Shown piece by piece: positions 5,214-47,091 of a stretch of DNA of 64,000 nt. How positions within the stretch are numbered: the first letter of the stretch is position 1; each line of letters begins with the position of its first letter. The position numbers were made by a program, and so were the translations under genes. The notes beneath the pieces are model-generated. The model did not search any database. It was not told where the DNA came from and saw only the letters and a list, made by a program, of their open reading frames with translations. Source of the DNA: Cyanobacteria bacterium MAG CAR3_bin_5 (lineage in GTDB: Bacteria; Cyanobacteriota; Cyanobacteriia; PCC-6307; Cyanobiaceae); assembly GCA_026709085.1 (NCBI GenBank), contig JAPOTR010000033.1:1-64000 (forward strand), in the 5' to 3' direction.

Positions 5214-5828
5214 TCAATCCGTGAAGTTCACTGTGTAATCTTTAGCATCTCCAACATTCACTTGGTTAAAGGGAAGGAGTTCGTATCCCAAGTCAGTACA
5301 AGCGTTCTCTAAATTTGTTTCAGCATCTACAGATGCAGTTTCAATGCCCCAGGGTTTGAGATCAAGAATCTGCACAAGTTTATTGTTATCGATTTTGTAT
5401 TCGATATGGAAATGGCCATATCTTCGCCCGCACACTTGATAATCTCCTGAATAGTTGTATAAATCGTCTTGAGAATAAGCATAGTAGTAATAATGTGTCT
5501 GGTCCAGGTCATAGTCGATTACTGCAAAGCATTCATGCTGTGGGATCTCCCAGTGACTTCTGATAGTCCATCTGGGCTGCACGATAATGGTCAAGTCAGG
5601 GGAACCATCCTTACTGGATCTTATGTATGATGTGCCAAAGTTATAATATGCGAGAGCCAAATTAAGGGTAGATGCGCCATTGGTGCGGTTGCAGAATTTC
5701 AGACCTGCAAAGACTGTCTCTGGGGCCATGAAGGCCAGGGCGGAGGCGAGAAGAACGGCACCCCACAGGAACCTGCTGATCGCCCCATGTCTTGACACGA
5801 TACCTGATTGTGTGTACAGCTTCTTCAT
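5214..5828 (-). CDS. Secreted DUF1036-family protein
   Basis: A 204-aa protein of unknown function with a basic start and a hydrophobic signal segment ending around AETVFA (about residue 41). The mature part opens LKFCNRTNG and continues through PQHECFAVI, THYYYYAYS and KPWGIET. The CN-T opening, the Cys in the middle and the YYYYAY stretch are what I associate with the DUF1036 family, predicted periplasmic or surface proteins. Its start overlaps the stop of the Slam-like barrel gene by 4 bp (ATGA), so it is translationally coupled to that export locus. A short spacer separates it from queA, which ends just beyond. Confidence 0.7.
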   Translation of the reverse strand: MKKLYTQSGIVSRHGAISRFLWGAVLLASALAFMAPETVFAGLKFCNRTNGASTLNLALAYYNFGTSYIRSSKDGSPDLTIIVQPRWTIRSHWEIPQHECFAVIDYDLDQTHYYYYAYSQDDLYNYSGDYQVCGRRYGHFHIEYKIDNNKLVQILDLKPWGIETASVDAETNLENACTDLGYELLPFNQVNVGDAKDYTVNFTD

Positions 5829-6571
5829 AACTGCCTGATGAACTGCAGCTCCATACGTGTCCGACGGTAATCGTGTAACTGGGCGTTGGATCCGCGAATC
5901 TCCCTGGTGAGCACCAGCTTGGGACTGAAGCCTTGCACGGTAAAGCCACGATTAAACACGGAGATACCGAGAATCCCGGTCTGGTCTCTGCGGGACTGTC
6001 CTGGAGACGTGAATGGATACCAGTCCCCCTCATACTCTGTCCAGAGGGATTCTCCATTGACGCCCATGGTGAAGCCCCGCGGCAGATCCGCAGACACATC
6101 CAGACCCAACGACTGGCCAGTATTCCGGTGGCGTTCCTGTTCCGTCCGTTCCTGGGTTATCCCCACGCTGGCTTCCAGGCGCACCGTGGGCGTTGCTTGC
6201 CAGAGAGTACGCAGCGAGACGTTGGTGCGTGGGCCGTCCAGGTGAACGTCCTCGTCATGACTCCGCTGATGGTAGGATACCTCTGTGCGCACCAGAAGGG
6301 AGCTTCTCAAGCGATGGCTCGCCTCAATACGGAGCCCCGACGCGCGCCATTGCCCATCGCCGCCCAGCCACTGGCGGCGGGCGCTGCTCAGCAGACTAAC
6401 CTCCGTTCCATTGCCGAGAAACCAGCGCGGCCCTGCATGGGCGGAAAGGAAAGTCTGGTCAAAATCCTGACCCTCGTATTCTCTCAGTGAGAGATGACCA
6501 CCTGCGCGAAGGCGGACATTTTCGCTCAGTGGATGCTCATATTCACCCCCCCCCACAAAGCAACTCCCCAC
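5825..6571 (-). CDS. Slam-like protein, C-terminal outer-membrane beta-barrel half (out of frame with N-terminal half)
   Basis: This is the C-terminal half of a surface lipoprotein assembly modifier (Slam, formerly DUF560), the outer-membrane translocon of type XI secretion. The sequence consists of alternating amphipathic strands: GGEYEHPLSENVRLRAGG, LSAHAGPRWFLGNGTEVS, LRIEASHRLRSSLLVRTEVSY and a closing strand ending LQFIRQL with the barrel-typical short C-terminus. No start codon of its own is convincing. Reading from the upstream half continues into this frame only if the nine-G run at 6546-6554 gains one base or loses two. The next gene overlaps its stop by 4 bp. It could be a contingency gene, a pseudogene or a sequencing error. 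Confidence 0.75.
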   Translation of the reverse strand: MGSCFVGGGEYEHPLSENVRLRAGGHLSLREYEGQDFDQTFLSAHAGPRWFLGNGTEVSLLSSARRQWLGGDGQWRASGLRIEASHRLRSSLLVRTEVSYHQRSHDEDVHLDGPRTNVSLRTLWQATPTVRLEASVGITQERTEQERHRNTGQSLGLDVSADLPRGFTMGVNGESLWTEYEGDWYPFTSPGQSRRDQTGILGISVFNRGFTVQGFSPKLVLTREIRGSNAQLHDYRRTRMELQFIRQL

Positions 6572-7158
6572 CCGGATTGTGACCCTGCGTCCACTTCAAA
6601 AGGCAGACCCCAGATATTAATTGTCCTGGTATCAGAGGACGCGTTGATATTGCTATCGGGAACCATAGCCGCGCCGAAATAGCCGTTCCAACGGCGCCGC
6701 TCTCTGATGACTGCAAGAAACCTCCTGATGTTGCCAGCCACCGCCGGATGGGGATTCCCCGCCAGCACCCGCTTGAAATGCTTCTGCGATAACCCGTCAT
6801 CCCCCTTGACGTAGAACGCCCGTGCAAGTTCAAGCCGCACCCGCACCAGTTCGGGCCGATCCACCAGGATCTTGTGGAACGAGGCAATTGCCTCACCCAG
6901 ATATCCCTTGCGTTGCAACTCTGGCGTCCCAGGGATCTGGGCTGCTCCCAGTGCCGCCAGACCCACCAGAAACAGAGCATCCACTTGATCCGGATGATCC
7001 GAAGAAGCGAGTGGACGCAGGATAGACAGGGCCTCGGTAAAACGACCTTCCTGGATTAAAGTTCCCCCATAGTTGACATGAGGATCAACGGACAGATGCG
7101 ACTGGACCTCCTGGGCATCCACTGGGGCAGCGAGGAGCAGGACAAGACAGGCAAGCAT
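6526..7158 (-). CDS. Slam-like protein, N-terminal TPR half, ending at a poly-G frameshift
   Basis: This is the periplasmic N-terminal half of the Slam-like translocon. A signal-like segment (MLACLVLLLAAPVDAQ) is followed by helical TPR repeats around GGTLIQEGRFTEALSILRPLA and ARAFYVKGDDGLSQKHFKRVLA, then the start of the barrel at WNGYFGAAMVPDSNINAS, a region well conserved in Slam proteins. The frame runs into a stop right after the G tract. I place the start at the ATG at 7158 because the frame further upstream is shared with a transposase scrap; a TTG at 7182 would give a better signal-peptide n-region. It lies downstream of the lipoprotein gene it would be expected to serve. Confidence 0.75.
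   Translation of the reverse strand: MLACLVLLLAAPVDAQEVQSHLSVDPHVNYGGTLIQEGRFTEALSILRPLASSDHPDQVDALFLVGLAALGAAQIPGTPELQRKGYLGEAIASFHKILVDRPELVRVRLELARAFYVKGDDGLSQKHFKRVLAGNPHPAVAGNIRRFLAVIRERRRWNGYFGAAMVPDSNINASSDTRTINIWGLPFEVDAGSQSGWGVALWGGVNMSIH
6546..6554 (-). repeat. Poly-G tract (9 nt, coding strand) at the Slam-like frameshift
   Basis: The coding strand reads nine consecutive G between TTTGT and TGAATATG. With nine, translation ends WGGVNMSIH-stop. With ten (or seven) it reads WGGGEYEHPLSEN (or one Gly fewer) and joins the barrel half. A homopolymer exactly at the frame break is the pattern of slipped-strand phase variation, and also a common place for sequencing errors. Confidence 0.85.
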
Positions 7159-7216
7159 ACAAGCGACCTTGAATTGCGCCAAGCTCAGGACGCGAACCAG
7201 AAGATGAAGGTGGCTG

Positions 7217-7467
7217 CCGGAAGACAAGAGAGTGGAAGATAAGTGGACAGCAGCGATCATAGCGTGTTGCAATGGGGCGCCAGTCCCTGAGCTTGGCGAA
7301 CAGATTCTCAACCGTATGGCGCATTTGTAGAGATTCCTGCTGTACTGAACGGGCCGATTACGACTCCGCCTGGGCAGCATCCAGAGTTGTGCTTGATCCG
7401 CCAGCATGGCACGGACTTTCCGCTCGGTAGTCAGGCCGAGCGGCAGGCTCCGTTTCGTCGTTGACGG
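7217..7467 (-). mobile_element. IS5-family transposase remnant (C-terminal part, frameshifted)
   Basis: Two frames together give the C-terminal end of an IS5-type DDE transposase. The first reads MLPRRSRNRPVQYSRNLYK and then shifts near 7324 to MRHTVENLFAKLRDWR followed by PIATRYDRC. The family normally has a basic PRR stretch, then Y-K, then RH-x-I/VEN with the catalytic Glu, then DWRR-ATRYDRC. No 5' part, terminal inverted repeats or target duplications are visible, so this is a decayed scrap lying between the lipoprotein and Slam-like genes. It may have displaced the native start region of the Slam-like gene. Confidence 0.8.
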
Positions 7468-7470
7468 TTC

Positions 7471-8928
7471 TTACTGGTGATCGGGATGGACGAGGTTCTG
7501 CCTTGCGCCAAAGGCGCCGATAGCTGCGCCATCGTCGAACGTGCCGGTGAAGGTGCCGGTGACTCCGTACGGGTAGTTGTTGTCATCTGTTTCGCCGTAG
7601 AAAGCCCCATCGTAGCTGCCGATATTGTTCGCGCTGCCGGTATAGACGGATCCCGGCCCCCGAGGAGCCGGTCCGGCATAGGTCGTACCGCGGGTCGTGC
7701 CGGAAAACGCCGACGCATTGATCTGTGCCCTATGCATCTGAAGACTCCAGCCGAGATCCTTGCCACCATCCTGGAAATGGCTCATATGGCCGCTGATGGT
7801 CTGCTTGCTTCCGAAATCGGCATGCAGTATTACCCTCGCCGTGAATTCTCCGGTGGACGAATTGCCGCCGTCCACGTCCTTCACGTATAGGCCAGTGGCA
7901 GGACCCCTATAGGTTGCTCGACCGGTGAGGGACCGGGTATCCCCGGTATAGGGTTCCGAGCCACCGGCGAAGGTGTAGATATCGTATCCACCGCCATTGA
8001 CAGGGTCCGGGCCGTGCAGCCAGTAACCGAAATAGCGATAGTCGGTGTCCTGCACCAGAACCTGCGGCTGGACCAACCCGCCTCCCCTGCCGTTCTCGAT
8101 CTTGGGCACAAAAGCCCAGCCAGTCATTTCCGTCAAGGTCGTGTCCTCATGTATATTGATCGTACAGGATGAAGAGACACAAGTCAGGACGCCATAGGCA
8201 CCGTCGAATCGTGAGCCGATTTCATGACCTTCGTTGAACATCTTGTCCTGGCCGAGAACGCCCCGGTCCACGGCGCCGACAGAGTCATCGTCCTCGCGAT
8301 TGTCGTCGGGATCGCGAGAAAAGTTGGTCATGCGATCCACGTTATCGGCATTAATGTATAGTGCATCATTGGTCCCGTCCCCGTTGATATCTGTATCCAG
8401 CGAGTAGACTTCAGTGAAGGACTTGCCGGTTGGTCTGTCAATATCCGTCCAGATATTTATCCTTTGATTTTTACTATTATCATCAATCAGCTTCAAGCCG
8501 TAATAGTATGCTCCGCTCCCACTTGGAATCGGGACCGATTGCCTCGTATTCCGCCAACGAGCGTTGCTATTTTGCGACTCAAACCGGATTACCGTCACCT
8601 CCTGCGGCAGGTTAGGGGTCCTTCTCGATGTATTTCTCGATATGGTAAATCCCGTCGGTGAACCCGGTCCGGGTGTGGGGCCCTTGTTAATGGCGGCCCG
8701 CATGGCCTCGATATGGGCGGGGTCCTGTATGGCGGATTGCCGGCTCTGCTGGGTGATCTGTGCTGTGGGTGAGTTGCCGACCGTATGGGTTGTGACGGAG
8801 TTGCTGGTGTCTGGGGTGGAATCCGTACCAACAGTACCGCCACTGCCACCGCCACCACAGGCAGCCAGCAGGATGAGGGGAAAAGCGAGGGTTAAAGCAA
8901 GAGGAGCACTGCCAGGCCAATGCTTCAT
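7471..8928 (-). CDS. TbpB/fHbp-like surface lipoprotein (putative Slam client)
   Basis: A 485-aa lipoprotein. The signal peptide ends with lipobox LILLAAC near residue 24, followed by a flexible Gly/Ser/Thr-rich linker, the usual anchor of surface-exposed lipoproteins. The C-terminal ~200 residues carry strand motifs of the transferrin-binding-protein-like barrel: DYRYFGYWL, SLTGRATYRGPATGLYVK, TARVILHADFG, then SYDGAFYGE and the terminal GTFTGTFDDGAAIGAFGARQ. Members of this fold are Slam clients, and a Slam-like gene lies just downstream on the same strand. The ligand (metal carrier, haem, host factor) cannot be told from sequence. The gene ends normally, directly before the transposase remnant. 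Confidence 0.78.
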   Translation of the reverse strand: MKHWPGSAPLALTLAFPLILLAACGGGGSGGTVGTDSTPDTSNSVTTHTVGNSPTAQITQQSRQSAIQDPAHIEAMRAAINKGPTPGPGSPTGFTISRNTSRRTPNLPQEVTVIRFESQNSNARWRNTRQSVPIPSGSGAYYYGLKLIDDNSKNQRINIWTDIDRPTGKSFTEVYSLDTDINGDGTNDALYINADNVDRMTNFSRDPDDNREDDDSVGAVDRGVLGQDKMFNEGHEIGSRFDGAYGVLTCVSSSCTINIHEDTTLTEMTGWAFVPKIENGRGGGLVQPQVLVQDTDYRYFGYWLHGPDPVNGGGYDIYTFAGGSEPYTGDTRSLTGRATYRGPATGLYVKDVDGGNSSTGEFTARVILHADFGSKQTISGHMSHFQDGGKDLGWSLQMHRAQINASAFSGTTRGTTYAGPAPRGPGSVYTGSANNIGSYDGAFYGETDDNNYPYGVTGTFTGTFDDGAAIGAFGARQNLVHPDHQ

Positions 8929-22272: not shown

Positions 22273-25200
22273 CTACTCGATCAGCTTATCAATAAAACCA
22301 AGCGTTGCGGCATTTTCCATGAGTGTGCGCACCTTGGCCTGGTCCAGACCTGCGGCCACCTCTGCATCGATCTCAAGCTTCAACGAAACGTCCGCGCCCG
22401 GAAGCATTGTCAACTGCTGGACGACGGCTTCCACGATCCGGCTCATATCCCTGGCCGGCCGGTCTGACGAGAGCATCACGGTTCCCTGAAACCGGGTCAG
22501 CCGCGGCTCTGGCGCTGCCTTGGATCCTCCTCCCGGTTCGCCGCGGGTTGCAGGTGACGCCAAGACGCCCTGCCGTGGCCGGCCACCACCGGCAGCGGCC
22601 GTCTCCTTTGCCCCCGGGTCTGCCGTCGTTGGCGGTTCCAGCCCGGCGGCGGGGGTGCTCGGTTGGCTGCGAGCAACTTCCGGGCGCACAATCAGGGATT
22701 CACTGTCCAGAACGACAGGGGCATGGGGAGCGTTTTCCATCACGAGACCGGCATAGGATCCGGTGTCAGCATTCCACCGTTCGGCGTAGGCAAACGGACC
22801 GGCCTTGCCGCTGACAGCCGCCTTGACGGCTTTGACAAGGGTTTCCCGATTCTTCAAGCGGGGGAGATAGGTGTATCGGTTCAGGTATTCCCAGAGATCC
22901 TTCAGGGACAGGTGCAGCCTGTCGCCCCAGATGGTTTTCTCCAGCTCACGATTCAGAGTCACCGGACCGATTTCAGGGAGCAGGGTTTCGTCCCCCACAA
23001 GTTTCTTGCTGGCGCGGCTGAGGACACCGTCTTGAGAGGGAATGCGGGAGGACACAAACTGCACATCAGACTGGGGAGACTCCTGATAGGGAGTGATCAA
23101 GTGACACCAGGTTTCCTTGAGGCGGGTTTTAACGGTCTCCCGGGCTTTGTCTGTTTTGGCTGTAGCGAGGGCAATGTCACTTGTTCTCAGGTCCAGGCGC
23201 TCAGCATCATGGACGATGCCGCTCCAGGCAAGATACATGCCCATGGCGTCTTGCAAGGTATCCATCTGTCTGGAATCAGCCGCAAGAAAAACGAGGGTAT
23301 TACGATAGACACGGGGTGCGTTGCCCCGCTGGAGAAGAATATCCCTGCTTTCCATCATGGCCTTGGAAGAATCATTGCGGTTGGTGTGGGCGTGGGCAAC
23401 GCCGAGGACAACCGCCCTCACGCCACCCGCCTCGTCCAGGACATCCGCCGAACTGCCGGGCGCCACTTGAACAGCGGTGAACTGACCGCGATCCGTTCCC
23501 CTGATGACTTCAGAGAGCATCTTGTCAATCTTCAAGATAAGGGATCCTTCCAACTGACCGGCCCGATCAATGGCCATACGGTTGAGATTTGACGCCCTGG
23601 AATACCACCAACGCCCCAAATCGCTGTGCATGAACTTGGCCCGGTCAGCCAGGCGTCGCAGGGCATCGCCAAAGACGGGGATTTTTTCTCCAGGCTGAAC
23701 CACCCCCAGATAGATTCTTTTGTCGTCAATGCCCAGGTTCTCCTGGCCTTCCGTGGCTGCTGTGGCCACAAAAACGGCCCGGGCCACCCGCCGCGCCGCC
23801 GAGCAGCGATTCAGGTTGGGGGCGGATTGGTCAACGGCGTAGGGGGTGGAGTTTTGCCCATCCACGTCTGCGGCAATGATGTTCCGCCAGGCCTTGGGCA
23901 GATAATTGAGCAATTCCGGCTCCACGCGACGCGAACAGACGGGAACGCTCCCCGGCATCACCATCAGGGAACGATCATCGGACATCCAGAGGGCATGGAC
24001 CACCTGGGCCATCAGACGCAGCACGCCCCGGGTGCGCTGGAACTGCTCCAGGGAACCCCAAGCCGTGTAGAGATGGTCAAACAGATCCGGGTGGATGGGA
24101 TAGGCCTTGTCCAGCTTGCGCCGATAGTCTTCCTCTGCACAGCCCGGCGGGAAACTGTTCCGGCTTTCCTGATACAGCTTGGCAAACTGCTTCAGGGTGT
24201 TGTTGCGGTGCTTGTACTGATCACCGGGGATCTCCTTGAACAACCGCCGCCGCACGATTTCGTAGCTCTCTTCCTGGGAAGCGGGGCGCCATGCGCTCTC
24301 CACCCGGCTGAAGGTCTGTTTGAGGCGGGCCAGCGCCTCCTGCCCCCCTTCGCCGCCCACCTCAATCCGGGACGCCGGCAAGGAGGCCACCAGCAGGGTT
24401 TGGGGCGAAGCCTTCACCGCCTCGGTGAGGGCCTGCACAAACGATAGATTGGCGTCAAAGGAGCCGGAGGGGAGGCCGTCCATCTTGTAGATCTGCCGCA
24501 GGTAGGCCACCCACTCGTCAATCAGGATCAAACAGGGGGCATGGGCCTTGAAGAGGGCCTCCAGCAGGTTAGAGCCTGGGGCAATGCCCCTGGCGTCATG
24601 GTCAGCCACCAGGTCGTAGGCCTTCTGTTTCCCCAGATCCCAGGCGAGGGCGCCCCAGGTGGTGCGGATCTCCTGACCACCCGCCAGCTTCTTCACGTCC
24701 ATCGGTCCCCGGGCCGTGCCCACCAGAACGGCCCGATTCACCTTTTCGGGAACGTCCAGCCCCTGGGCAACCAGCAGTTGATCCAGCCCCGGCAAATCCT
24801 TCACGGCCACATCCCCCGCCATGTGATAGAGGGCCAGCATGGAATGGGTCTTGCCGCCCCCGAAATTGGTCTGCAATTCCACCACGGGATCGCCCCCACG
24901 GCCGGACAAACGCTGGGCAGCGCCAATCAGCAGGGCGCTCAAGCCGTCCGTCAGATAGGTGCGGCTGAAAAATTCCCGGGGATCGCCGTACTCGGTCGGG
25001 GCGCTGCCCTTGTGAACCTTGGACAGGTCGGCGGCAAATTCGGCCTGCCGGAAGTCGCCGCTGGCCACGTCCCGGTGGGGCTCCACCACCTGACGCCAGG
25101 GCAACAGTCCCTTGGCCGTCTCCGTGGCGACGCTCACCTGTGGCGATTTGCGGCGCTCCTCGTTGCGCTCCAGTTCCCGGTACTTGACCCTCAGGATGGT

Positions 25201-25611
25201 ATCCCGCATCCTGGTCAGTTCGTCTGCCACCGGGCCGGCGCCGATGGCGTCCATGAGGCGGCGCATGGAGTCCAGCGCCCGCTCGGCATCGTCGTAGCTG
25301 AAGACCTCCTCATGGGCCAGCTTGTTGCGCACTTGCAGCAGTTCGGAGACCAGCGCCCGTTCCGTTTGCCCCAACACCACCGCAAAGCCCGCTTCCCAGA
25401 AGTCTATCATCACCTTCAACAAACCGGCCTGATCCCACGTCAGCTTGCCGGTGGCATCGGGGTACAAACCCCTCCACCCCTCCACCGCCTGCCGCTGCCA
25501 GATCCCTGGCAAGGCGCCGGCGCTGTCAAGCCGCTTCTCCACAAAGGGGGCCAAAGCTGCGGGAAGCAACTCCTGGCCTTCAAACACGGTCTGGCGGGCG
25601 CTCTTGGCCAT
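22273..25611 (-). CDS. DUF499 AAA+ ATPase with N-terminal Swt1-type HEPN domain
   Basis: A large (1112-aa) defence-type ATPase. Residues ~10-125 form a HEPN-like helical domain with the RNase motif RNKLAH (95-100). Then comes the DUF499 core with Walker A NFGGGKTHS (251-256) and Walker B-like CLILIDEWVAYLRQ. The C-terminal part contains a Pro/Gly-rich linker and a short domain (QGTVMLSSDRPARDMSRIVE). It pairs with the DUF1156 methylase 20 bp upstream, a COG1483/COG1743 association that recurs in defence islands. It may couple ATP hydrolysis to recognition of unmodified DNA, with the HEPN part as an RNA-cutting effector. This mechanism is inference. Confidence 0.88.
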   Translation of the reverse strand: MAKSARQTVFEGQELLPAALAPFVEKRLDSAGALPGIWQRQAVEGWRGLYPDATGKLTWDQAGLLKVMIDFWEAGFAVVLGQTERALVSELLQVRNKLAHEEVFSYDDAERALDSMRRLMDAIGAGPVADELTRMRDTILRVKYRELERNEERRKSPQVSVATETAKGLLPWRQVVEPHRDVASGDFRQAEFAADLSKVHKGSAPTEYGDPREFFSRTYLTDGLSALLIGAAQRLSGRGGDPVVELQTNFGGGKTHSMLALYHMAGDVAVKDLPGLDQLLVAQGLDVPEKVNRAVLVGTARGPMDVKKLAGGQEIRTTWGALAWDLGKQKAYDLVADHDARGIAPGSNLLEALFKAHAPCLILIDEWVAYLRQIYKMDGLPSGSFDANLSFVQALTEAVKASPQTLLVASLPASRIEVGGEGGQEALARLKQTFSRVESAWRPASQEESYEIVRRRLFKEIPGDQYKHRNNTLKQFAKLYQESRNSFPPGCAEEDYRRKLDKAYPIHPDLFDHLYTAWGSLEQFQRTRGVLRLMAQVVHALWMSDDRSLMVMPGSVPVCSRRVEPELLNYLPKAWRNIIAADVDGQNSTPYAVDQSAPNLNRCSAARRVARAVFVATAATEGQENLGIDDKRIYLGVVQPGEKIPVFGDALRRLADRAKFMHSDLGRWWYSRASNLNRMAIDRAGQLEGSLILKIDKMLSEVIRGTDRGQFTAVQVAPGSSADVLDEAGGVRAVVLGVAHAHTNRNDSSKAMMESRDILLQRGNAPRVYRNTLVFLAADSRQMDTLQDAMGMYLAWSGIVHDAERLDLRTSDIALATAKTDKARETVKTRLKETWCHLITPYQESPQSDVQFVSSRIPSQDGVLSRASKKLVGDETLLPEIGPVTLNRELEKTIWGDRLHLSLKDLWEYLNRYTYLPRLKNRETLVKAVKAAVSGKAGPFAYAERWNADTGSYAGLVMENAPHAPVVLDSESLIVRPEVARSQPSTPAAGLEPPTTADPGAKETAAAGGGRPRQGVLASPATRGEPGGGSKAAPEPRLTRFQGTVMLSSDRPARDMSRIVEAVVQQLTMLPGADVSLKLEIDAEVAAGLDQAKVRTLMENAATLGFIDKLIE

Positions 25612-25630
25612 GGGGGCAACGCTCTTGTTC

Positions 25631-28450
25631 TCAAAGACCCATGGTATCCATGGCCATCTGCCGGGTACCGTCGGGATCGCGGCTGGCGGCAGCCTGACGG
25701 GTCAATTCGGCCCACACGGCAATCAGGCTGTTGTAGGCCATGGCCTCCCTGGCGTCCTGGCGCTTGTTTGTGCAGACATCATAGCAGCAGTAGGCAAGAT
25801 CCTTGACCATCTCTGCCTTGTCGCTGCCCATGGCCCTGAGCAGCCGCGCCGCCGCCGCTTCGCCGTCGTTGCTCAGAACGTGGATAAGCTGCTGGCAGCA
25901 TTCCCAGACGGTCAGTTGATGATCCGTAGCCAGGTCCCACTCCGGTTCCAGTTCGCTGCGCTGCAGAATGCGCACACGGCCGGCGGCGCTGGCCACAATG
26001 CCGGCCGACCGGACGCTCTCCACCGAGATGCCCCGGGCCCGGGCCAGGTTATCGGCGGCGCCGTACTCCCCTGAGTTGTTGCCGTGCTGTTCAAACCAGG
26101 TGACGGCAAAGCGGGTTTCCGGATCGAACTCCCCTTGCAGCTCGTTGAGAAACTCGTCAAGCTGGGCATTGATGAGTTGCAGCGCCGTCTTGACGGTCAT
26201 GGGGTTATCGTTGGCCTCCAGCACCGCCTTGTAGCGGGAAAACACCGCTATGCCGGGGCCGATGGCGGATTGGGGCAGATCCGTGGGGGCGATGTTGGCG
26301 GCCTGAAGATTTTTGATGGCGGACGGCAACTCCCGTTGCAAAGCGCGGATGAATTCGGCGCGGGTGATGGTGGCTGCGGTATCTTGCCGCTTGCGGCAAA
26401 CGAGAACAACGGAGTTGGCAAGGGCGTTGGAGCCGATTCCTCTCATTCTACTGGCACATTCGGTACGCATCGGCCAGGTGCCAACGATGGCATAGCCTGC
26501 TTCAATGATAGCTGATAGGAATGTTGACCATCCCGTCGAACTGATGCCCTCAGTTTCTATTTCACGTTGCTTAAAAGCATAATAGATTGTAGTTGGAAAA
26601 TCGGCCAAAGAGTGCTGGACCATGGTCGAGATCGCATCGCCCATGCCGCGCATGAAAAACGCTTCGGCCTCATCCTTGCCGCCATGTCGATATGGAGTCG
26701 CTACCAATTCCTCTGCTTTGGGAACTGCCAATGTGGAAAAGAGTGAAGGATAGACGGGGAAAAGTGATCGTTTCATCCAGGCATAGAAGAAATCTGAAAG
26801 ATCAGCATATCCAATGTTATCATAATATGGAGGATCAGATGAAATTACTACTCCATCTTCAGGGGCAGAAAAATTTGCAGCGTCATTCTGAATAACCAAT
26901 GCAGGTGCATTTGGATAATCAAAGGTATTCTTATCAAATGCCTTGAAGACACCTTCCAAAACAATCGAGAAGCTTCCAGATGATGTTGACAGGACATTAC
27001 CTTCAGCCAAGTCCCAAACCATGGGAATAGCCTGGCGGTTGAACAGATTTCTTGGACATTGAGCGGCAGGCTCCCAACGACAGAGGGAATTGGCAAGATC
27101 CGCCAACTTATCAATACAAAACCCCAAATACACGCTCACCGCCTCGGCATAGGCTTTGGCGCCAGCGCCGCCGTCCCGTAGCGGTGTGGGGTCAGGTGAA
27201 CAGCCGGCAGCCAGCCCATCGGCCTCAATCTGCTCCCGCGCTTCATGCACCAGATCACTGAAGGTATTCAACGCCACCAATTGCCGGTCGGTGAAGAGAT
27301 CACCGAAGGTGGTCATGCCGTAGTTGGGAGTTGTGAAAGAGCGGCCATCATCAGGCAGGGCAGTTTCTGGCTTCCACTCCGGCTTTGCCGAGAGGGCACG
27401 TTGCTCGTGTTCTTCTGTCGGGGCAACATAGATCCGTTTCCGCTCACCCTCAGCAACAATTGCCATTAACACCTGGGATAACTCACCAGTGGCGCCAGCT
27501 TTCCTTACATGTTCCGGGATGATTGCAGCGCCGGAGAACAGGCAACGGAAGTTGGCCCCACGGCCTGCCTTGGTCCCTTCTTTGGCCTTTGCAATCTCCT
27601 CCTTTGTCCCCCCATAGCGAATGCGATAGGAGATTGTCTTGGCTTGTCGATCCACAATCGGCTCAATCCAGGCCTCTTTGTCTTTCTTTGAGCAGAGCAG
27701 GAAGGTGGAGGCAATCGGCGTCTGCACATCGGAAAACGCCGGATCCGGGCTGGGTACCGTTCGCGCCCAGATCCAGGCGATCACGGTGGCCTTGCCGCCG
27801 CCATGCTGCTTGGGCAGGTCCACCTGGGGATAGAGGTGGCCAATGCGCTTGAAGGCCTTCTCCCGCATCCACTGGCCGTAGTATTTCACGTCCTCCGCCA
27901 GCCCTTGGGCATTCTGGTAATCCATGCGCTCCTGCACACCCGGATGCACCGGCTTCCGGTCCTTGAACTTGGGCGGGATTTCAATCATGGCCTTGCCGAT
28001 CATCACCGCCACCGGATTCAAGTCCGATCCGTAGGCCGGCAGCCCCAGCCGCTGGGCTTCCAAGGGGATGGATCCACCCCCTGAAAACGGGTCGTACACC
28101 GGCGGCAGTTTCCCCCCACAGCTTTTACGAATCTCGGCCCGCGCCCGCTTCAGCACGGCTTCGTTGGTGGAGTTCTCCCACTTCACCAACTCTTCAATGA
28201 TCCCGAAAAGCCGCTTGCGTTCCGCTTCTATTGCCTCATCGTTCGGGAACTTGTCCGGGTGGCTGGAGGGATCATCCACCAACTGCCCAAACAACACCGC
28301 CCGGCACGTGGCCAGCGGCCGCCGCGCCCACCACAGGTGCAAGGTGGAAGGATGCCCATGGCGGATGGATTTTTCCCGCACGGAGGCTTTGTTGATGGCC
28401 TCAAGGGGAAGGGCCACCTCGATGAGTTTTTTCTTGGGGGTGGGGGTCAT
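25631..28450 (-). CDS. DUF1156 adenine-specific DNA methyltransferase
   Basis: A 939-aa DNA methylase of the COG1743 type. It opens with LIEVALPLEAINKASVREKS and WWARRPLATCRA (40-50), hallmarks of DUF1156. The SAM-binding motif is VYDPFSGGGS (118-127) and the catalytic motif is SSDPPYYDN in the second half. The putative zinc-ribbon insert reads FRCLFSGAAI. It probably modifies host DNA so that the linked ATPase and helicase spare it. It overlaps the upstream DUF4917 gene by 4 bp and is followed by the DUF499 gene. The segment at about 26.5-27.1 kb is more AT-rich than the rest, hinting at a mosaic origin. Confidence 0.92.
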   Translation of the reverse strand: MTPTPKKKLIEVALPLEAINKASVREKSIRHGHPSTLHLWWARRPLATCRAVLFGQLVDDPSSHPDKFPNDEAIEAERKRLFGIIEELVKWENSTNEAVLKRARAEIRKSCGGKLPPVYDPFSGGGSIPLEAQRLGLPAYGSDLNPVAVMIGKAMIEIPPKFKDRKPVHPGVQERMDYQNAQGLAEDVKYYGQWMREKAFKRIGHLYPQVDLPKQHGGGKATVIAWIWARTVPSPDPAFSDVQTPIASTFLLCSKKDKEAWIEPIVDRQAKTISYRIRYGGTKEEIAKAKEGTKAGRGANFRCLFSGAAIIPEHVRKAGATGELSQVLMAIVAEGERKRIYVAPTEEHEQRALSAKPEWKPETALPDDGRSFTTPNYGMTTFGDLFTDRQLVALNTFSDLVHEAREQIEADGLAAGCSPDPTPLRDGGAGAKAYAEAVSVYLGFCIDKLADLANSLCRWEPAAQCPRNLFNRQAIPMVWDLAEGNVLSTSSGSFSIVLEGVFKAFDKNTFDYPNAPALVIQNDAANFSAPEDGVVISSDPPYYDNIGYADLSDFFYAWMKRSLFPVYPSLFSTLAVPKAEELVATPYRHGGKDEAEAFFMRGMGDAISTMVQHSLADFPTTIYYAFKQREIETEGISSTGWSTFLSAIIEAGYAIVGTWPMRTECASRMRGIGSNALANSVVLVCRKRQDTAATITRAEFIRALQRELPSAIKNLQAANIAPTDLPQSAIGPGIAVFSRYKAVLEANDNPMTVKTALQLINAQLDEFLNELQGEFDPETRFAVTWFEQHGNNSGEYGAADNLARARGISVESVRSAGIVASAAGRVRILQRSELEPEWDLATDHQLTVWECCQQLIHVLSNDGEAAAARLLRAMGSDKAEMVKDLAYCCYDVCTNKRQDAREAMAYNSLIAVWAELTRQAAASRDPDGTRQMAMDTMGL

Positions 28451-29496
28451 TGGGGAGCCTCCTCAATACGCAGGCTTTCATGCAAAAGGGGATGTGTAGC
28501 GGCATCGAAGAAGTATAAGTTCTCAACATTTGGTAAGGCGTGGCGGATTGCAGCTTTCTTTTTGGGAATGTTCCCATTCTTACGAACTGATATTGCAACA
28601 TCCCTATGCTCGTGACCATTGATGGCATTAGCAATGTGCTTATCACTACCTCCAAGACTATGTCCTAGAATAACCAGAGGATTAGAGTCCTTCTCAAAAC
28701 AAGAAAAAACAAACGATAAATAGTCAGATTGGTAAATCGATTGAAGCTTATATCTATGTGTACCTTCCGAGATGAAAAGAGGAACCGCACCTGTATCGTG
28801 GTTGTCTCCAAATGATTCTAAAAGACCTGTACCCATGCTCACCTGTTTGTATGTTCGACCAAGTATATTCCTGTATAAGTGCAAGCTGCCATGAAGAAAG
28901 TACACTCCGGATCTGTTTTCCTTATTGATGATTCCGACATTGTTGCTGTTAAAAGGATTGTCCCAGAAAAAGTCAAAGAAATGATTTTCATGACATTCTT
29001 TGATATGCATTATCATACACCAATAGATCAAAAGATCATAATTTGTATAATAAATTGACATATATTTTGCTAGTTCGTTGGCGATTCCTGTGCGATTTTC
29101 TTCTGGAAATTTAGACGCAGGAAAAATATGCACACTGTGTACAGCTTGTATTAGTGCTTTTCGAATTCTATTTTCATGATCCTGTAGTAATTCACAGTTA
29201 TCGTCTTGATTTAAAGCCACAGAAACAGCTTTGCTTGCCGCAAGGACATTCAATATCATCTCGAAATTTTCAGTTCCAAAAATTGTAAAGAGCGCTTGAT
29301 CTGTATCAGTTAATAATTTGAAAGGACTGTTCTGTGAAGCCTTGCTGAAAAGTGAGTCATATTTGAATCCAGGCCAAATATTTTGGCTGAATCCGTTCCC
29401 AAGCAACAAGCTTGGCCTTGGATCGTGACCTTGTTGTTCATCCCAGCCAAGATCAGGCCAGTCGTAAAGGCTTTCATTCAAACTATCTCTGCTCAC
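28447..29496 (-). CDS. DUF4917 (SIR2-like) protein, putative defence effector
   Basis: A 349-aa protein with LLLGNGFSQNI near residue 31, YFLHGSLHLY in the middle and VILGHSLGGSDKHI near residue 275. These blocks recall the DUF4917/SIR2-like group (GNGFS opening, HG-LH, GxS-xxDxH), in which relatives act as NAD-consuming abortive-infection effectors. NADase activity here is not proven. The gene is strikingly AT-rich (28.5-29.4 kb) compared with its GC-rich neighbours, indicating recent acquisition. Overlaps at both ends (4 bp with the methylase; 4 bp with a helicase scrap) place it inside the defence operon. Confidence 0.75.
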   Translation of the reverse strand: MSRDSLNESLYDWPDLGWDEQQGHDPRPSLLLGNGFSQNIWPGFKYDSLFSKASQNSPFKLLTDTDQALFTIFGTENFEMILNVLAASKAVSVALNQDDNCELLQDHENRIRKALIQAVHSVHIFPASKFPEENRTGIANELAKYMSIYYTNYDLLIYWCMIMHIKECHENHFFDFFWDNPFNSNNVGIINKENRSGVYFLHGSLHLYRNILGRTYKQVSMGTGLLESFGDNHDTGAVPLFISEGTHRYKLQSIYQSDYLSFVFSCFEKDSNPLVILGHSLGGSDKHIANAINGHEHRDVAISVRKNGNIPKKKAAIRHALPNVENLYFFDAATHPLLHESLRIEEAPQ

Positions 29497-29744
29497 CCCA
29501 ACACCTCCACCCGCCCCAGCAGGCTCTTGTTGCCGAACTGAACAGCACTCTGGCCCAGGAACACCTCCCGGCCATCCAGCACACCGCCAATGGAGCGGGG
29601 TGGCATATGCCTATTGCCCAACTGGACTTCGTCCAGGCTGAGCGTCTCCGGCTCATGAAGCAAGTTGGCGCTCTCTTGGTGGGCGACCGTTGCCGTGTTG
29701 GCGCATCTGCTTCGGCTTTTCACCTTGGTGAGGGGCATGGGCAT
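29493..29744 (-). pseudogene. Remnant copy of the SNF2/DUF3883 helicase 3' end
   Basis: The minus-strand frame aligns with the last ~80 residues of the intact helicase that ends at 30823. VKSRSRCANTATVAHQE matches [27 protein letters not shown] matches [30 protein letters not shown], followed by QFGNKSLLGR, matches [20 protein letters not shown] followed by [10 protein letters not shown]. It lacks any helicase or nuclease core and is diverged, so it is a decayed partial duplicate. It touches the start of the DUF4917 gene, suggesting that the helicase once ended there and that the coiled-coil genes were inserted later. Confidence 0.72.
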
Positions 29745-29895
29745 TCATCCGGCGTCACCGGGGGCAGGTTGCCGGATCACCACCAGCAGGTGACGACCAT
29801 GGGCCATGGGCCTCAACAGAGTACCCCATCGGTGAGCCGCCTTCCCTGCACAGCACTTCCAATCTCCCTATGATGGGAGAGAACGCCATTCATTG

Positions 29896-30249
29896 ATGCC
29901 CTCCCTCCCCCCGGAACTCCTGACCCGGTGGTTGCAGCCCGGCGCCCTGGTGGCTGGCGCTGTTGGCGGCCTGGGGCTGCTCATCAGCGCTTTCCGCAAT
30001 CTCAGAACTGAACTGAAGGAAGAGATGAGGGAACTCAAGCAGGAGATGAGGGAAATGAAGGTGGAGATGAGGGCTGGTGAGGAACGGGTCAACAAGCGCA
30101 TTGACGAGGTCAGGACCGAGATGAAGGAAGAGGTGAGGGCCAGTGAGGAACGGGTCAACAGGCGCATTGACGAGGTGAAGGAGGAGGTGAGGGAACTCAA
30201 GGCCTTGCTGATCCAGGCGCTCCAGCTTTCACCGGCGGCCAAGCCTTGA
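29896..30249 (+). CDS. Membrane-anchored coiled-coil protein, copy 1
   Basis: A 117-aa protein. An N-terminal hydrophobic stretch (GALVAGAVGGLGLLISAF, residues ~17-34) could be one membrane helix. The rest is a long charged coiled coil built from repeats such as EEMRELKQEMRE and ERVNKRIDEVR/ERVNRRIDEVK. The start is the ATG in TTGATGCCC. I do not know a function. Because it lies between the helicase and DUF4917 genes but on the opposite strand, it looks like an inserted element in the defence operon rather than a part of it. Confidence 0.7.
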   Translation: MPSLPPELLTRWLQPGALVAGAVGGLGLLISAFRNLRTELKEEMRELKQEMREMKVEMRAGEERVNKRIDEVRTEMKEEVRASEERVNRRIDEVKEEVRELKALLIQALQLSPAAKP

Positions 30250-30328
30250 AGCCCTGGCCTCTTCGTTGGCGGGCCGCCCCGCACAGCGCCTCCGGGCTCC
30301 CTATGATGAGAGAGAACGCCGTTTATTG

Positions 30329-30628
30329 ATGCCCTCCCTCCCCCCGGAACTCCTGACCCAGTGGTTGCAGCCCGGCGCCCTGGTGGCTGGCGCTGTTGGC
30401 GGCCTGGGGCTGCTCATCAGCGCTTTCCGCAATCTCAGAACTGAACTGAAGGAAGAGATGAGGGCTGGTGAGGACAGGCTTAACAAGCGCATTGACGAGG
30501 TCAGGGAGGAGATGAGGGCCAGTGAGGAACGGGTCAACAGGCGCATTGACGAGGTGAAGGAAGAGGTGAGGGAACTCAAGGCCTTGCTGATCCAGGCGCT
30601 CCAGCTTTCACCGGCGGCCAAGCCTTGA
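30329..30628 (+). CDS. Membrane-anchored coiled-coil protein, copy 2
   Basis: A 99-aa paralogue, almost identical to the gene just upstream apart from an 18-residue in-frame deletion in the coiled coil (RELKQEMREMK region missing). It has the same hydrophobic N-terminal segment and the same C-terminus LLIQALQLSPAAKP. The ATG at 30329 matches the start of copy 1; the frame is open further upstream but that part belongs to the repeat leader. Confidence 0.7.
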   Translation: MPSLPPELLTQWLQPGALVAGAVGGLGLLISAFRNLRTELKEEMRAGEDRLNKRIDEVREEMRASEERVNRRIDEVKEEVRELKALLIQALQLSPAAKP

Positions 30629-30822
30629 AGCCCTGGCCTCTTTCCAAATCGCACCCAACTCATATCCCCTCACCCAGCAGTAGCCTTGAGCGGATCAAGA
30701 GGACGAGCCTTCTTGGCAGTGCAGGCCATGGGACTGGGTTGCTGGAGGTGTGGGTTTTATTGGACCTGGAATTCACCACATTGATTTAATCCCGGCTTCA
30801 GTTGTTCCGTAGCGCCCTTGAA

Positions 30823-33800
30823 TCAATGGGGTTCCTCCGCTCGTTCCAGCAGGCGTTTGAGGCTGAATTGAATGGCGCTCTGCTCAAACGGCGGCTCTCG
30901 TGTGTCAAGCGCGCCATAGACGTAGCGCGGACTGTGGGGGACGCCGCTTCTCACCTGGACAATGGCCAGGATGAATTTCTGGGGTTCATGGAGCGAGGTG
31001 ATAACCTCCTGGCGGGTGATCATCACTGTATCGGCCCCTTCGACTCGGCCTTTCACTTCAATGAAGCGCGCGTGATTGGCATCGGGATCATCGGAGTAAA
31101 TGTCGTAGCCGACTTTCTGGGCGGATATATCCTTCGGCTGGTTACCCAATGCCCGCTCGGCGGCCATGACGGCTTCCATTGCTTTGCCTTCGATCACGCG
31201 GCGGGCTGTTGGATCCCCGGACAGATTGGCCCCCAAGCCTTGCACCTTCTCTGCAGGAATACACTCCCGCAGGAGACCGCCGGGCACAACAACCATGCCG
31301 CCGCGAATCCGTGGCGGCTGGGGCGAGATGATGCGTTCCTGGGCGATCAGATGGAGGCGCCGCCTGAGACGTTCGGCCAGGTCCTCCGCCCGCCGTTCTG
31401 CATTGCGCCAGTTGAGCCCCGTCTTCTTGCCGGCCTTCTCCTGCTCCTTGAGGGCAAAGGCGCGGGAATCCCAATGATTGATTTCGCTGCTGAGGCGGGC
31501 CTTCACCTCCTGCTCCACCTTGTCGATTTCCGGCCCGCGCCGGTTCCGCACCTCTGCCACGTGGGACTGTGCCAACCTGACCGTGGCGAACTGCATCACT
31601 GTTTTCTCCAGATCGGAACAGAGCCAATCCTCGTTGAGGCGGTCTTCCACAGCCTCGATTTCATGGGGCGCCGCAGGTCGCAGATTGAGGTGCGGCGCAA
31701 TCCCCGCGTTGGTCACCCGGCCTGACGGGTCAACGGCGCTGAACTGGAGCCTTTGAGAGATAACGTTGGGCTTGCCGGAGTTGGTGGGACGGCCGTCCTG
31801 AACGCTGTGCTCCAGCAGGAAGAGGGCGGAGACGGTGTTGCCGTCATCCGTGTCGTCAATCAGCACCGCACCTTGCTGCATCAGGTGATCGTTTTGCTCC
31901 CGCACCATGCTGATGACCGCATCTAGCAGGGGATGGCCCGGGTGGATAAAGGCGGCGACGGGCTGCCGGTTGATCTTGCTCTTCTCAAAGCAGATGCGCT
32001 CATATTTCTTTTGCAGCGGCGCCCCGGAACCCATCTGTCGATCCTGCTGGCGCAGGCGCAGGGGCACGTGGGTGATTTCCCAGCGGCCTTCTTCCCGGCC
32101 CTTGATCCGGCCGCCAAGGCTCTGGAACGCCTCCACAAAAAAGCTCTGGACGTGATGGGGTTGCAGGCGCTGAGCCTCTGCTCGCTCCATGTCCAGACGG
32201 AGAGCCTGGACATGGGCTGGGGGCATCGTGTCACGGGTGAGTTGCCGTTTTTCGAGCAGGTTGAGAAGGTGGTGTTGATCCACGGCCCCGTCCACGGCCT
32301 GGAAGAGGCGGGCCTTGACGTCCTCCTGTTCTCCGTACTGGATGGCCTCAAACAAAAGATCCTTCAATGCACGCTCTTCAAACAGTTCGCCGAGCACGTC
32401 GTAGACACGTCCCCCCAAGTCTTTCCGGGCAGCCTCAAGTTTTTCCAGCAGACGAGCATAGACCTGGCCTTCCCGGGTGTCTTTTGCCACCAGATTCCAA
32501 AGATGACAGACTTCAACTTGACCAATCCGGTGAATACGTCCGAAGCGCTGCTCAATTTTATTGGGATTCCAGGGTAAATCGTAGTTGACCATCAGGTGGC
32601 CGCGTTGGAGGTTCACCCCTTCGCCAGCAGCGTCGTTGGCAACGAGAACCAGCAGATCACGATCCTGCATGAACCGCTCCACAACCTTGCGCCGGGCCTC
32701 GCGAGACACACCGCCATGGATGACTGCAACGGCATCAGGTCGTCCCAGCCGAGCTTCCACTTTCCCTTGTAGATACTCCAGCGTGTCCCTGGCTTCCGTG
32801 AAGATGATCAGCTTGCGGCAATAGCCGTCTGCTGGATCAGTCATGGTGCGGTCGTCAAGAATGCGGTTGAGTTGTTGCCACTTGGCATCTGTTCCGGACC
32901 GCAAGACATCAAGAGCCTTCTTCTCAAGGCCGCGCAACGTCTCCACTTCAATGTCGAGTTGCTCCAGGGTTTCCGCTGCAGTTACGCCAGTGGAAATTCT
33001 CTCCTCAAGATCACCAACTTCGTCTTGACTGTATTCCTCAATGTTGCCCAGGTCCTCTGGGCTGACCAATGCACGGTTGAGCGCAAGAGAGTCGTCACGT
33101 ACACAAAGCTGTGATTGGGAGAGCTCGCTCTCCAGCCGTTCGCGGCGCCGTTTGAGGGAATGGTAAATTGCAGCGGGACTTGAAGCAAGGCGTCGCTGCA
33201 GGATTTGCAGAGCAAAGCTTACGTTATTACGCTTATCTCCTCTGGCAAAGCGCTGTACGCGATTCATCTCGTTGCGCACATATTCCGTGACCACCCGATA
33301 AAGTTCTGTTTCTTGAGGAGAGAGTTCATACTTCACCGTATAGGCGCGTCGCTCAGGAAAGAGCGGACGGCCATCAAATTGCCGAAGCTCTTCCTTGGTC
33401 AATCTCCGCATCATGTCTCCCACATCAGCAACACGGACACCCTCCCGAAAGGATCCCTCAAAGCGGTCTCCATCCAGCAGCGCCATGAAAAGCTGAAAGT
33501 CCTTTTCCTTGCCGTTGTGTGGCGTTGCCGTCATTAGCAGAAAATGCCGACAAACCCGACTCGCCATCTGGCCAAGTTGATAGCGTTTTGTGGTCTTGAC
33601 TTCTCCTCCAGAGTAAGTAGCAGACATGCGATGGGCCTCGTCAACGATCATCAAATCCCATTCAATTGATGATTTCAGCTTTTCTTGAAGATTGCTGTTG
33701 CGTGCAAGAACATCCAGGCGGGCGATCAGGTAATTTTTATCGTTGAAGGGATTACCGGAACGGGAACCCTCAACCATGTCACCTGTCAGGATGTCAAATT

Positions 33801-34332
33801 CCAGCTTGAACTTCTCCCCAAGCTCGTCCTGCCACTGCTCCACCAGGCTGCCGGGCGCCACCACCAGGCAACGCTCCAGGTCGCTGCGGGCCATCAATTC
33901 CTTGATCAACAGCCCGGCCATGATCGTTTTCCCGGCGCCGGGGTCGTCCGCCAAGAGAAACCGCAACGGCTGACGCGGTAGCATTTCGTCGTAAACCGCG
34001 GAGATTTGATGGGGCAGGGGCTCCACAAGACTGGTATGAATTGCCAGATAGGGATCAAAGAAGTAGGCCAGCTTGATGCGGTTGGCCTCCGTCACCAGAC
34101 GCAGCAACGCCCCGTCTCCATCGAACGACCACCGGCGTCCACGACTCTCGACGGCAATGCGGTGCTCATCGTCACGGTAGAGGGTGGTCTCGGCAACGGG
34201 ACCGACGGAAGGCCGATACACCACGTTGACCGCCTGGCTGCCGATCCATTCCACCGCCACCACGTCAACGGATCCACCAGCAGCAAGCCCGAGAACCCTT
34301 GTGCCCGGCCTGACCTCTTCCAGTACACTCAT
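30823..34332 (-). CDS. SNF2-type DEAD/DEAH helicase with C-terminal DUF3883 domain
   Basis: About 1169 aa. A helicase core carries motif [14 protein letters not shown], motif II DEAH in VDEAHRMSA, motif [12 protein letters not shown], and VI in [25 protein letters not shown] of the Swi2/Snf2 group. Long helical segments follow. The last ~110 residues ([20 protein letters not shown]) are DUF3883, a PD-(D/E)xK-nuclease-like domain found at the end of defence helicases. The ATG at 34332 ([13 protein letters not shown]) fits better than the upstream start at 34374. It is the first gene of the minus-strand defence operon, now separated from it by inserted plus-strand genes. Confidence 0.88.
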
Positions 34333-34471
34333 CCTGAAGCAGGCTGGGGGGAGAAGAGTACACCACCGGGCCACCAGGGTCTGGACCTGGCAATGGCAGA
34401 GCCGGACCCAAGATTACCGGCGCGCCACTTGGCGACAGCTTGCCTATACTCTTTCCATCTCACCACCTCCC

Positions 34472-44328: not shown

Positions 44329-47091
44329 TCACACCCGAAACACCTTCATCACCTCGTCCCCCAGGTGATTGATGACCTTGACGGCGATGCGGCCCGAGGC
44401 GGGGCGCTGAAAGGGGCGGGAGGTGTCGCTGTTGAGGGTGGCCCAGGCCTCCTGGTGGATTTCCGCTTTGAGGGTGGTCTTGAGGGCCTTGTAGGGGTCT
44501 CCTGCACCGAGGAAGTAGGCATGGCGGACAAAGAAACTCTCCTCGTTGTAGTCTGTGTCAACGAACCAGCAGGCGATGCCGTCGGCGTCATGGCTGCGGA
44601 TCTCGCCGGTGTTGGGGTGGAATACGTCCACGCCATTGATCCTGACCTGGAACTGTTGGGCTGCGCCGTTGGCCCCGGCCACCGGCAGGATGTCAATATC
44701 CGGCTCGCCGAAGATGACGAAGAGATTGCCCTTGCCGGTGTTTTTGAGATTGCCTGCCATGTGCAGATCGGCGTTCATGCGGGCCTTGAGAATGGGGATG
44801 CGGCCCAGCTTGTTGAAATCCGCGGCGTGGGCTTCATAGTTGAAGGCGCAGGCAATCAACACGTCAAAATCGGCCTCGGCGGCTTCCCGGGCCGCGGCCG
44901 CCAGATCCGCCCGGGGAACCGTGCCAAATTCGGAACCGATGAAGACGGCTGCCCGCTTTTCGGTGCCAGCCTCGTCACCACCTTCCCCATAATATCCTTG
45001 GGCACAGATCAACTCACCCGGCCAGGGGGTGAGGGAAGAAAACACAATGCGATCTTCCTTGTGGACCTGCTGTACGCCGGCAGTTTTGAGATGCTCCAGG
45101 ATGATGCCGGCAAAATCCTGCGCTTCCCCCCGGGCCTTTGCCACGGTGTCAATCAGGTCGTCGTTTTCATCAACGCCCAGAATGCGATGAGGGGAAATAC
45201 TCTCCACGGTGAACGGACCTGCTACCCTGACCTTCTTGTTGTCTTGATAGGGCTTATCGTAAAGATATTCATGGTCGGCTTTGGCGGCGATGGAGGCATC
45301 GATTTCTTTTTGGCGGGCGATGCGGTGTTTCCACCAGTCCGCGTGAATTCTGCTAACCTCCTCGGGCCAAGCCTCTTTCCCATCCCGGGGGATTTCCCAC
45401 TCCTCCCAGGATGTGCCAAGGGCGGCATTCAACCTTGAGCGCAGCGGCTCCAGCGTTTGCTGGAACTTCTCCCAGATGACGTCAATTTCCCTGTTATTGG
45501 CGATGGATTTAAGCGTGATATGGGGTACCCGCTCATAGACAAAGCCAAGCCGGACGTTGCCGTGGGTGGGGGCATTTGACGGAGTCGTGCCGGCAATCCC
45601 AGCTTCCCGCTGTTGACCTTCAGGGCTATCGGCCAACAAATAGTAGGGATAGCGGGCGCCCATGATGCGGGCGCGGGCCAGAGCAAGGGCAACCCGGGAC
45701 GTATCGATGGTGATCCAGCGGCGGCCCCACTGCTCGGCAACATAGGCAGTGGTGCCCGATCCGCAGGTGGGATCAAGGACAAGGTCGCCGGGGTCAGTGG
45801 TCATCAGGATGCAGCGCTCAACAACCTTATTGGTTGTCTGCACAACGTATACCTTCGGATCGCTTCTACTTTGTATTCCTCCCACATCTGTCCAAACATT
45901 ATTCGTTGAAATGACAGGAAAATCATCTAAGTATCTCTTGAATCGGAGAGTATTTCCTTCAATAATTATCCTTCCAGCAGCAACGACCCGTTCCATTCCC
46001 TGCTGGGTGGTTTTCCAAAAAAGCCGACCAGGTGTAAATAATCGTCCAAGATATCGGAACGCAAAACTAATACTTTCACTGCCACTTTGAGATCTTAAAT
46101 CTGTTGTAGCATATAACCTATTATCGTTATTAGTACTATGAGTATATCTGCTGGCACCCGCAGTGCCAGCCACCTTCTCCAAGAAAGGTGATCGGTATTT
46201 CACAACTTCAAATTCCTTGGCATACCAAATGACATAATCATTGATACCATTGAGTAATGCTTGCCCCAGACCTGTTGTCTTGGTAAAAATTATTTCTCGT
46301 ACAAAATTCCTTTCCCCAAACACCTCATCCATCACTGCCCGCACCCGATGCACGTTCTCATCTCCAATCTGCACGAAGATCGATCCGCTCTCCGTCAACA
46401 AATCCCGCGCCACCGTCAGCCGATCCCGCAGATAGGTCAAATAGGAATGAATTCCGTCCCGCCATGTATCCCGAAAGGCTTTCACTTGCTCCGGTTCCCG
46501 GGTAATGTGTTCGGCTTTGCCGTCTTTCACGTCCCGGCTGGTGGTGGACCACTGAAAATTGGAGTTGAACTTGATGCCGTAGGGCGGGTCAAGATAGATG
46601 CACTGCACCCGGCCCCGCAGCCCTTCCCGTTCCGCCAGGGACGCCATCACTTGCAGGCTGTCCCCCAGGATCATGCGGTTGCTCCAGTTGGCCTCGTGCC
46701 GGTAGAACTCGGTGCGGTCGGCCCCATCCGGCAGCCCGTTGAAGTCCGCGAACAAATCAGTCTGGTTGCCCGATTGGCGCGCCATCCGCTCCGTTTCCGT
46801 CATCTTGCTGTGGCGCAGCAGATCGTTGATCAGCACCTTGGGATGAATCTTCTCCTGGATGAACAGGGGCGGCGCCTGCACCACCAGGTCCGACCAGTTC
46901 TGCTGGTCTTTGCCCCGCCACACAAGCTGGGGATCCAGGTCCCGGTTGCGGCGTGCGTAGGCCACCTCAATGGGTGTGCGGTCATCCGCCGCCATCACCG
47001 GCTCGTGCTCAGCGGTGGGGATGTTGGGGCGGGATGCACCGTCATGGCGCAGGGTTTCGATGGTTCGAGACGTTCTCCGTTTGGCTGTCAT
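44329..47091 (-). CDS. mod: Type III restriction-modification methyltransferase (Mod)
   Basis: The N6-adenine methyltransferase and specificity subunit of a type III system. It is a beta-class arrangement: the catalytic motif DPPYGIKF at 168-175 comes first and the SAM motif LDPTCGSGTTAYVAEQWG later (about 430-445). The recognition domain probably lies between them. The C-terminal third (DFDVLIACAFNYEAHAADF) is typical of the large Mod variant. It starts directly after the hepT stop. Its restriction partner is the broken gene at 50653-53750, 3.6 kb away. A scrap copy of its middle is found at 53918-54140. Confidence 0.92.
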   Translation of the reverse strand: MTAKRRTSRTIETLRHDGASRPNIPTAEHEPVMAADDRTPIEVAYARRNRDLDPQLVWRGKDQQNWSDLVVQAPPLFIQEKIHPKVLINDLLRHSKMTETERMARQSGNQTDLFADFNGLPDGADRTEFYRHEANWSNRMILGDSLQVMASLAEREGLRGRVQCIYLDPPYGIKFNSNFQWSTTSRDVKDGKAEHITREPEQVKAFRDTWRDGIHSYLTYLRDRLTVARDLLTESGSIFVQIGDENVHRVRAVMDEVFGERNFVREIIFTKTTGLGQALLNGINDYVIWYAKEFEVVKYRSPFLEKVAGTAGASRYTHSTNNDNRLYATTDLRSQSGSESISFAFRYLGRLFTPGRLFWKTTQQGMERVVAAGRIIIEGNTLRFKRYLDDFPVISTNNVWTDVGGIQSRSDPKVYVVQTTNKVVERCILMTTDPGDLVLDPTCGSGTTAYVAEQWGRRWITIDTSRVALALARARIMGARYPYYLLADSPEGQQREAGIAGTTPSNAPTHGNVRLGFVYERVPHITLKSIANNREIDVIWEKFQQTLEPLRSRLNAALGTSWEEWEIPRDGKEAWPEEVSRIHADWWKHRIARQKEIDASIAAKADHEYLYDKPYQDNKKVRVAGPFTVESISPHRILGVDENDDLIDTVAKARGEAQDFAGIILEHLKTAGVQQVHKEDRIVFSSLTPWPGELICAQGYYGEGGDEAGTEKRAAVFIGSEFGTVPRADLAAAAREAAEADFDVLIACAFNYEAHAADFNKLGRIPILKARMNADLHMAGNLKNTGKGNLFVIFGEPDIDILPVAGANGAAQQFQVRINGVDVFHPNTGEIRSHDADGIACWFVDTDYNEESFFVRHAYFLGAGDPYKALKTTLKAEIHQEAWATLNSDTSRPFQRPASGRIAVKVINHLGDEVMKVFRV

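Follow-up and report, generated by a model that had tools for sequence, protein, structure and literature searches.

The Slam/DUF560 family has been described from Proteobacteria, where type XI secretion serves both animal and plant association (PMC5449769, PMC8406197, PMC12282271), and cyanobacteria are absent from the family descriptions in these three papers. Slam1 and TbpB have been reconstituted, and in Neisseria the translocation requires the chaperone Skp (PMC9090332). We analyzed a 64,000-nucleotide stretch of a cyanobacterial contig (JAPOTR010000033.1, assembly GCA_026709085.1), hereafter the window, in which three minus-strand genes are transcribed in the order lipoprotein, Slam (in two frames) and DUF1036. 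Like described Slam/T11SS loci (PF04575), this one has TPRs followed by a SlipAM barrel and an adjoining lipoprotein with a TbpB-type C-terminal domain; unlike them, it is cyanobacterial, coupled to DUF1036 and, as assembled, broken in frame at a run of nine G. The marine cluster 3 T11SS also has a recurrent DUF neighbor and a TbpB-type cargo that is only sometimes adjacent, but there the partner is DUF1194 (PMC12282271). The locus likely represents a type XI (Slam) module for the export of surface lipoproteins in a sponge-symbiont cyanobacterium, derived from one proteobacterial acquisition.

The 5' half of the Slam gene (6526-7407, minus strand) encodes a signal peptide and the TPR domain, as judged from profile matches and from the alignment with intact orthologues, and its true start is probably the TTG at 7182-7180. 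With hmmscan, TPR_19 (PF14559) was above its cut-off in this half, while TPR_Slam (PF24575; 3e-4, 21.6 bits) was under its cut-off of 35.2. The 3' half (5825-6571, minus strand), in a shifted frame, matches the DUF560/SlipAM outer-membrane barrel (PF04575) with 4.9e-16 and 59.5 bits, against a cut-off of 22. Both halves align across their length with the intact orthologues of about 460 aa, all six of which contain SlipAM (best 5.9e-26). The structure model of an orthologue is weak (pLDDT 55) and shows TPR helices and then about 12 long strands, against the fourteen of a Slam barrel; the best matches of a fold search with this model include outer-membrane barrels, with low TM-scores, and in a PDB sequence search the Slam profile returned one chance-level match only. 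Across the genus, omega is mostly 0.2-0.5, indicating purifying selection. Since its frame is broken, we assign the window Slam to the Slam/T11SS family by homology and not as a proven working gene. The initial annotation, made from the sequence alone, had recognized a Slam-like TPR-plus-barrel protein, which the SlipAM and TPR_19 matches corroborate; the homology stands, while its wording hides the two frames, although the expression "joined Slam frame" shows that the break had been noticed.

The first gene (7471-8928, minus strand) encodes a predicted surface lipoprotein of 485 aa, the putative Slam cargo, recognized by its LAAC lipobox, PF01298 and a profile of Slam-neighbor proteins. Its signal peptide up to the lipidated Cys (8857-8928, minus strand; lipobox LAA/C, residue 24) was read from the sequence as MKHWPGSAPLALTLAFPLILLAAC. 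A C-terminal TbpB-type barrel-like domain, with a GAFGA motif at its end, occupies residues 292-479 (7492-8055, minus strand), of which residues 292-477 are covered by the non-cyanobacterial profile in hmmsearch; the PF01298 stretch lies at 7498-7926. TbpB_B_D (PF01298) itself is borderline by hmmscan (3.5e-5; 24.8 bits, cut-off 26) and above the cut-off in the profile search of the genome (27.3 bits). The Slam-neighbor profile, built from six proteins, all non-cyanobacterial, from proteobacteria and with a GAFGA-type ending, gives the lipoprotein 104.5 bits, with zero false matches in 968 six-frame frames and 450 shuffles (the lipoprotein's own frame excepted). The structure model of the lipoprotein is unusable (pLDDT 31), and its 8-stranded C-terminal barrel is putative; the cargo barrel profile found zero matches in a PDB sequence search.

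Like the neisserial TbpB, HpuA and fHbp, this protein combines a lipobox with a C-terminal barrel-type domain. It differs from the two-lobed TbpB, since a single PF01298 stretch was found where two lobes were looked for, and neither a TbpA-like gene nor a TonB-dependent receptor lies beside it, the TonB-dependent receptor match of this genome being on contig C38. With one barrel-type domain and no adjacent receptor, TbpB identity and transferrin uptake were rejected as unsupported. Thus, of the TbpB-like lipoprotein initially proposed, the C-terminal barrel-type domain is retained and the whole TbpB is not, while transferrin or haem uptake is unsupported here, given the single domain and the receptor match on another contig. 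A TbpB-type lipoprotein is found near Slam in 3 of the 7 loci, and two of the remaining loci (L010 and L012) lie on contigs that break off a short way upstream of Slam. Other candidate lipoproteins occur at unlinked sites in G008, G149, G133 and SH4, with a lipobox in some of the frames only. Such a dispersion is expected if Slam also serves unlinked clients, and these single-barrel lipoproteins are probably further clients of it.

The third gene (5214-5828, minus strand) encodes a secreted DUF1036 protein (PF06282, 3.7e-11). Its start overlaps the Slam stop as ATGA in the window and in every other locus (7 of 7 genomes), in agreement with the coupling that had been noticed before; the extent first given to the locus, 5825-8928, holds for the lipoprotein/Slam pair and leaves this gene out. 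The window genus has multiple copies of DUF1036, which also occurs in a few further genera of this family and in Synechococcus elongatus. It therefore seems to be native, and its junction with Slam probably postdates the acquisition of Slam. A PDB sequence search with DUF1036 gave zero matches. A Pertussis_S1 match (E 0.13) was judged to be due to chance.

A scan of species genomes recovered orthologous Slams in Candidatus Synechococcus spongiarum LMB bulk15M, SH4 and SP3, in two Synechococcus MAGs and in one Prochlorococcaceae MAG, all from the same genus as the window genome. PMC5408123 and PMC5331489 describe Ca. S. spongiarum as a symbiont of sponges. The host therefore belongs to the Ca. 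S. spongiarum group of sponge symbionts, and the named genomes among the carriers of the locus agree with the cyanobacterial, host-associated lifestyle that the initial annotation had put forward. The window contig also carries groEL, queA and the ATP synthase beta gene, which supports a cyanobacterial chromosome; considering also that six further assemblies of this genus have the locus, we think that contamination is unlikely. In the nearest relative, queA is near Slam, and groEL was not found on the compared stretch. Among 400 genomes of the family, distributed in 59 genera, SlipAM was confined to this genus, where 7 of 10 genomes have it; the other 58 genera gave no match. PF01298 was restricted to the same genus at E <= 0.001, and at E <= 0.1 it was present in five of its genomes, every one with Slam. 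The pair is thus absent from the other sampled genera of the family. In a phylum sample of 386 genomes, a single further SlipAM match was detected, and it is weak (G719:C1:228846-229205, locus L022, 21.8 bits).

For the tree and the pairwise identities, the two half-frames of the window were abutted as one protein, for comparison only. The maximum-likelihood tree unites the cyanobacterial Slams in a single clade (100/99), which groups with the Slams from the order of the deltaproteobacterial MAG RHO3_bin_65 (100/99), and the other alphaproteobacterial Slams are distant. This sister group contains eight genomes from the order of RHO3_bin_65 (G729, G731-G736 and G738) and one from the class of Defluviicoccus bin129 (G838); we take RHO3 and bin129 to be sponge bins. 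The closest non-cyanobacterial Slams are those of the RHO3_bin_65 order, found in 8 of its 35 genomes with 448-505 bits, and G838 reaches 444 bits, with the next Slams of its class at about 200. Identity of the cyanobacterial proteins is 43-50% with the sister group and does not exceed about 34% with other near-full-length Slams. Several sister-group loci resemble the window in having a barrel-type protein with a GAFGA-type ending beside Slam; the G729 locus differs in that no DUF1036 gene was seen there. A single old horizontal acquisition of Slam by this cyanobacterial genus is the simplest reading and fits these data. The source was probably proteobacterial, a direction that we infer from the known spread of the Slam family in Proteobacteria. 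In the order of RHO3_bin_65, one contig (G735:C95, L082/L088) carries two tandem Slam genes preceded upstream by a TbpB_B_D protein (60 bits). In Defluviicoccus sp. bin129 (L076/L029), the match to Slam is limited to positions 34-195 of the 462 in the profile, and recombinase-like frames lie nearby; the gene may be broken.

The TPR-plus-barrel protein could instead be a polysaccharide exporter of the PgaA/BcsC/EpsL type, unrelated to the lipoprotein. There are weak BBP2_2 and EpsL matches, and the poor fold matches include BcsC, a subunit of cellulose synthase, and PelBC, which transports exopolysaccharide. However, the SlipAM match is far stronger and runs full-length in an intact orthologue, and TbpB-type lipoproteins lie beside the sister Slams in proteobacteria, which makes this alternative highly improbable. 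Within the reading as a Slam export module, the frame break admits several explanations. The two halves are one gene with a one-base frameshift at a pure G9 tract, located by comparison with the relatives (6546-6554, minus strand; C9 on the plus strand), and one extra G would produce a single open frame. In SB0668, which is closest to the window genome, the tract is G10 and the frame is open; in the other five relatives the G run is interrupted, and the Slam frame is intact in all six. Homopolymer runs are prone to sequencing and assembly errors. An error of this kind, with the real tract in frame and Slam intact, could well explain the break, although we hold this only tentatively; it agrees with the coding conservation that continues past the break.

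A recent loss, which would make the Slam of this strain a young pseudogene and leave the lipoprotein in the periplasm, seems rather unlikely to us. The frame is indeed broken as assembled, and omega in the barrel half is raised (0.76, window against SB0668), but the rate is similarly raised in the relative with the intact frame. Polarised nonsynonymous to synonymous changes are 35:21 on the window branch and 37:13 on the SB0668 branch, and such similar values indicate that the window Slam has no sign of long decay; across its 239 barrel codons there are zero further stops. This open downstream frame and a decay not faster than in SB0668 would also be compatible with phase variation, with G9/G10 as a slipped-strand switch that would turn Slam, and the display of all client lipoproteins, on and off. 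The pure run sits precisely at the frame break, with G9 in the window and G10 in the in-frame nearest relative, and long poly-G runs, up to 17, occur elsewhere in the window genome. On the other hand, the comparison relies on one sequence per species, five of the six relatives have an interrupted tract, and certain other genera are likewise rich in G runs of at least 12, so we regard a switch as unlikely. If it were true, a single slip would change how an entire set of host-facing lipoproteins is displayed. More doubtful still is the broader proposal of a photosynthetic symbiont of animals whose horizontally acquired lipoprotein exporter is toggled by a poly-G tract and has in DUF1036 a partner of a new type. 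A poly-G survey across the family gave high counts in some genomes of the genus, zero in another, and high counts in a few other genera, without clearly singling out the window genus. In the window genome, G17 and G12 runs (L045 1501-1517 and 1575-1586; G000:C2:9197 and 9271) are upstream of an SLH-domain porin-like gene, possibly as a spacer for variable expression, and a G15 run (L066 1501-1515; G000:C4:134838) is within a 574-aa membrane-protein frame, glycosyltransferase-like.

Returning to the export module, we suggest, by analogy with the Slam1-TbpB reconstitution (PMC9090332), that Slam would export an unfolded lipoprotein. The latter would exit the cytoplasm via Sec, be lipidated and arrive unfolded at the outer membrane, where the periplasmic TPR domain of Slam would receive it and the Slam barrel carry it to the outer face. 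The C-terminal barrel-type domain would then fold outside, with the variable N-terminal part directed towards the sponge or the water. DUF1036 could be translated together with Slam and exported as its partner, whether as another cargo or as a helper in the periplasm. The membrane topology, the export, the surface exposure and the function of the lipoprotein, including any role towards the host, are predictions. A single lineage-specific acquisition would make surface lipoproteins a means for this phototroph to deal with its animal host, and the locus yields a small set of candidates for proteins that face the host. A further question is which route an unfolded lipoprotein would take to the outer membrane in a cyanobacterium.

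Elsewhere in the window, an Hma-type anti-phage system was found at 22273-34374 (minus strand), with HmaC (933 bits), HmaB (1242), a PDC-S21 protein and HmaA (1515 bits). Two overlapping helicase-like frames (50653-52473 and 52329-53750), without a PADLOC match, may be a split restriction subunit, and a type III methyltransferase (1358 bits) is encoded at 44329-47091 on the minus strand.
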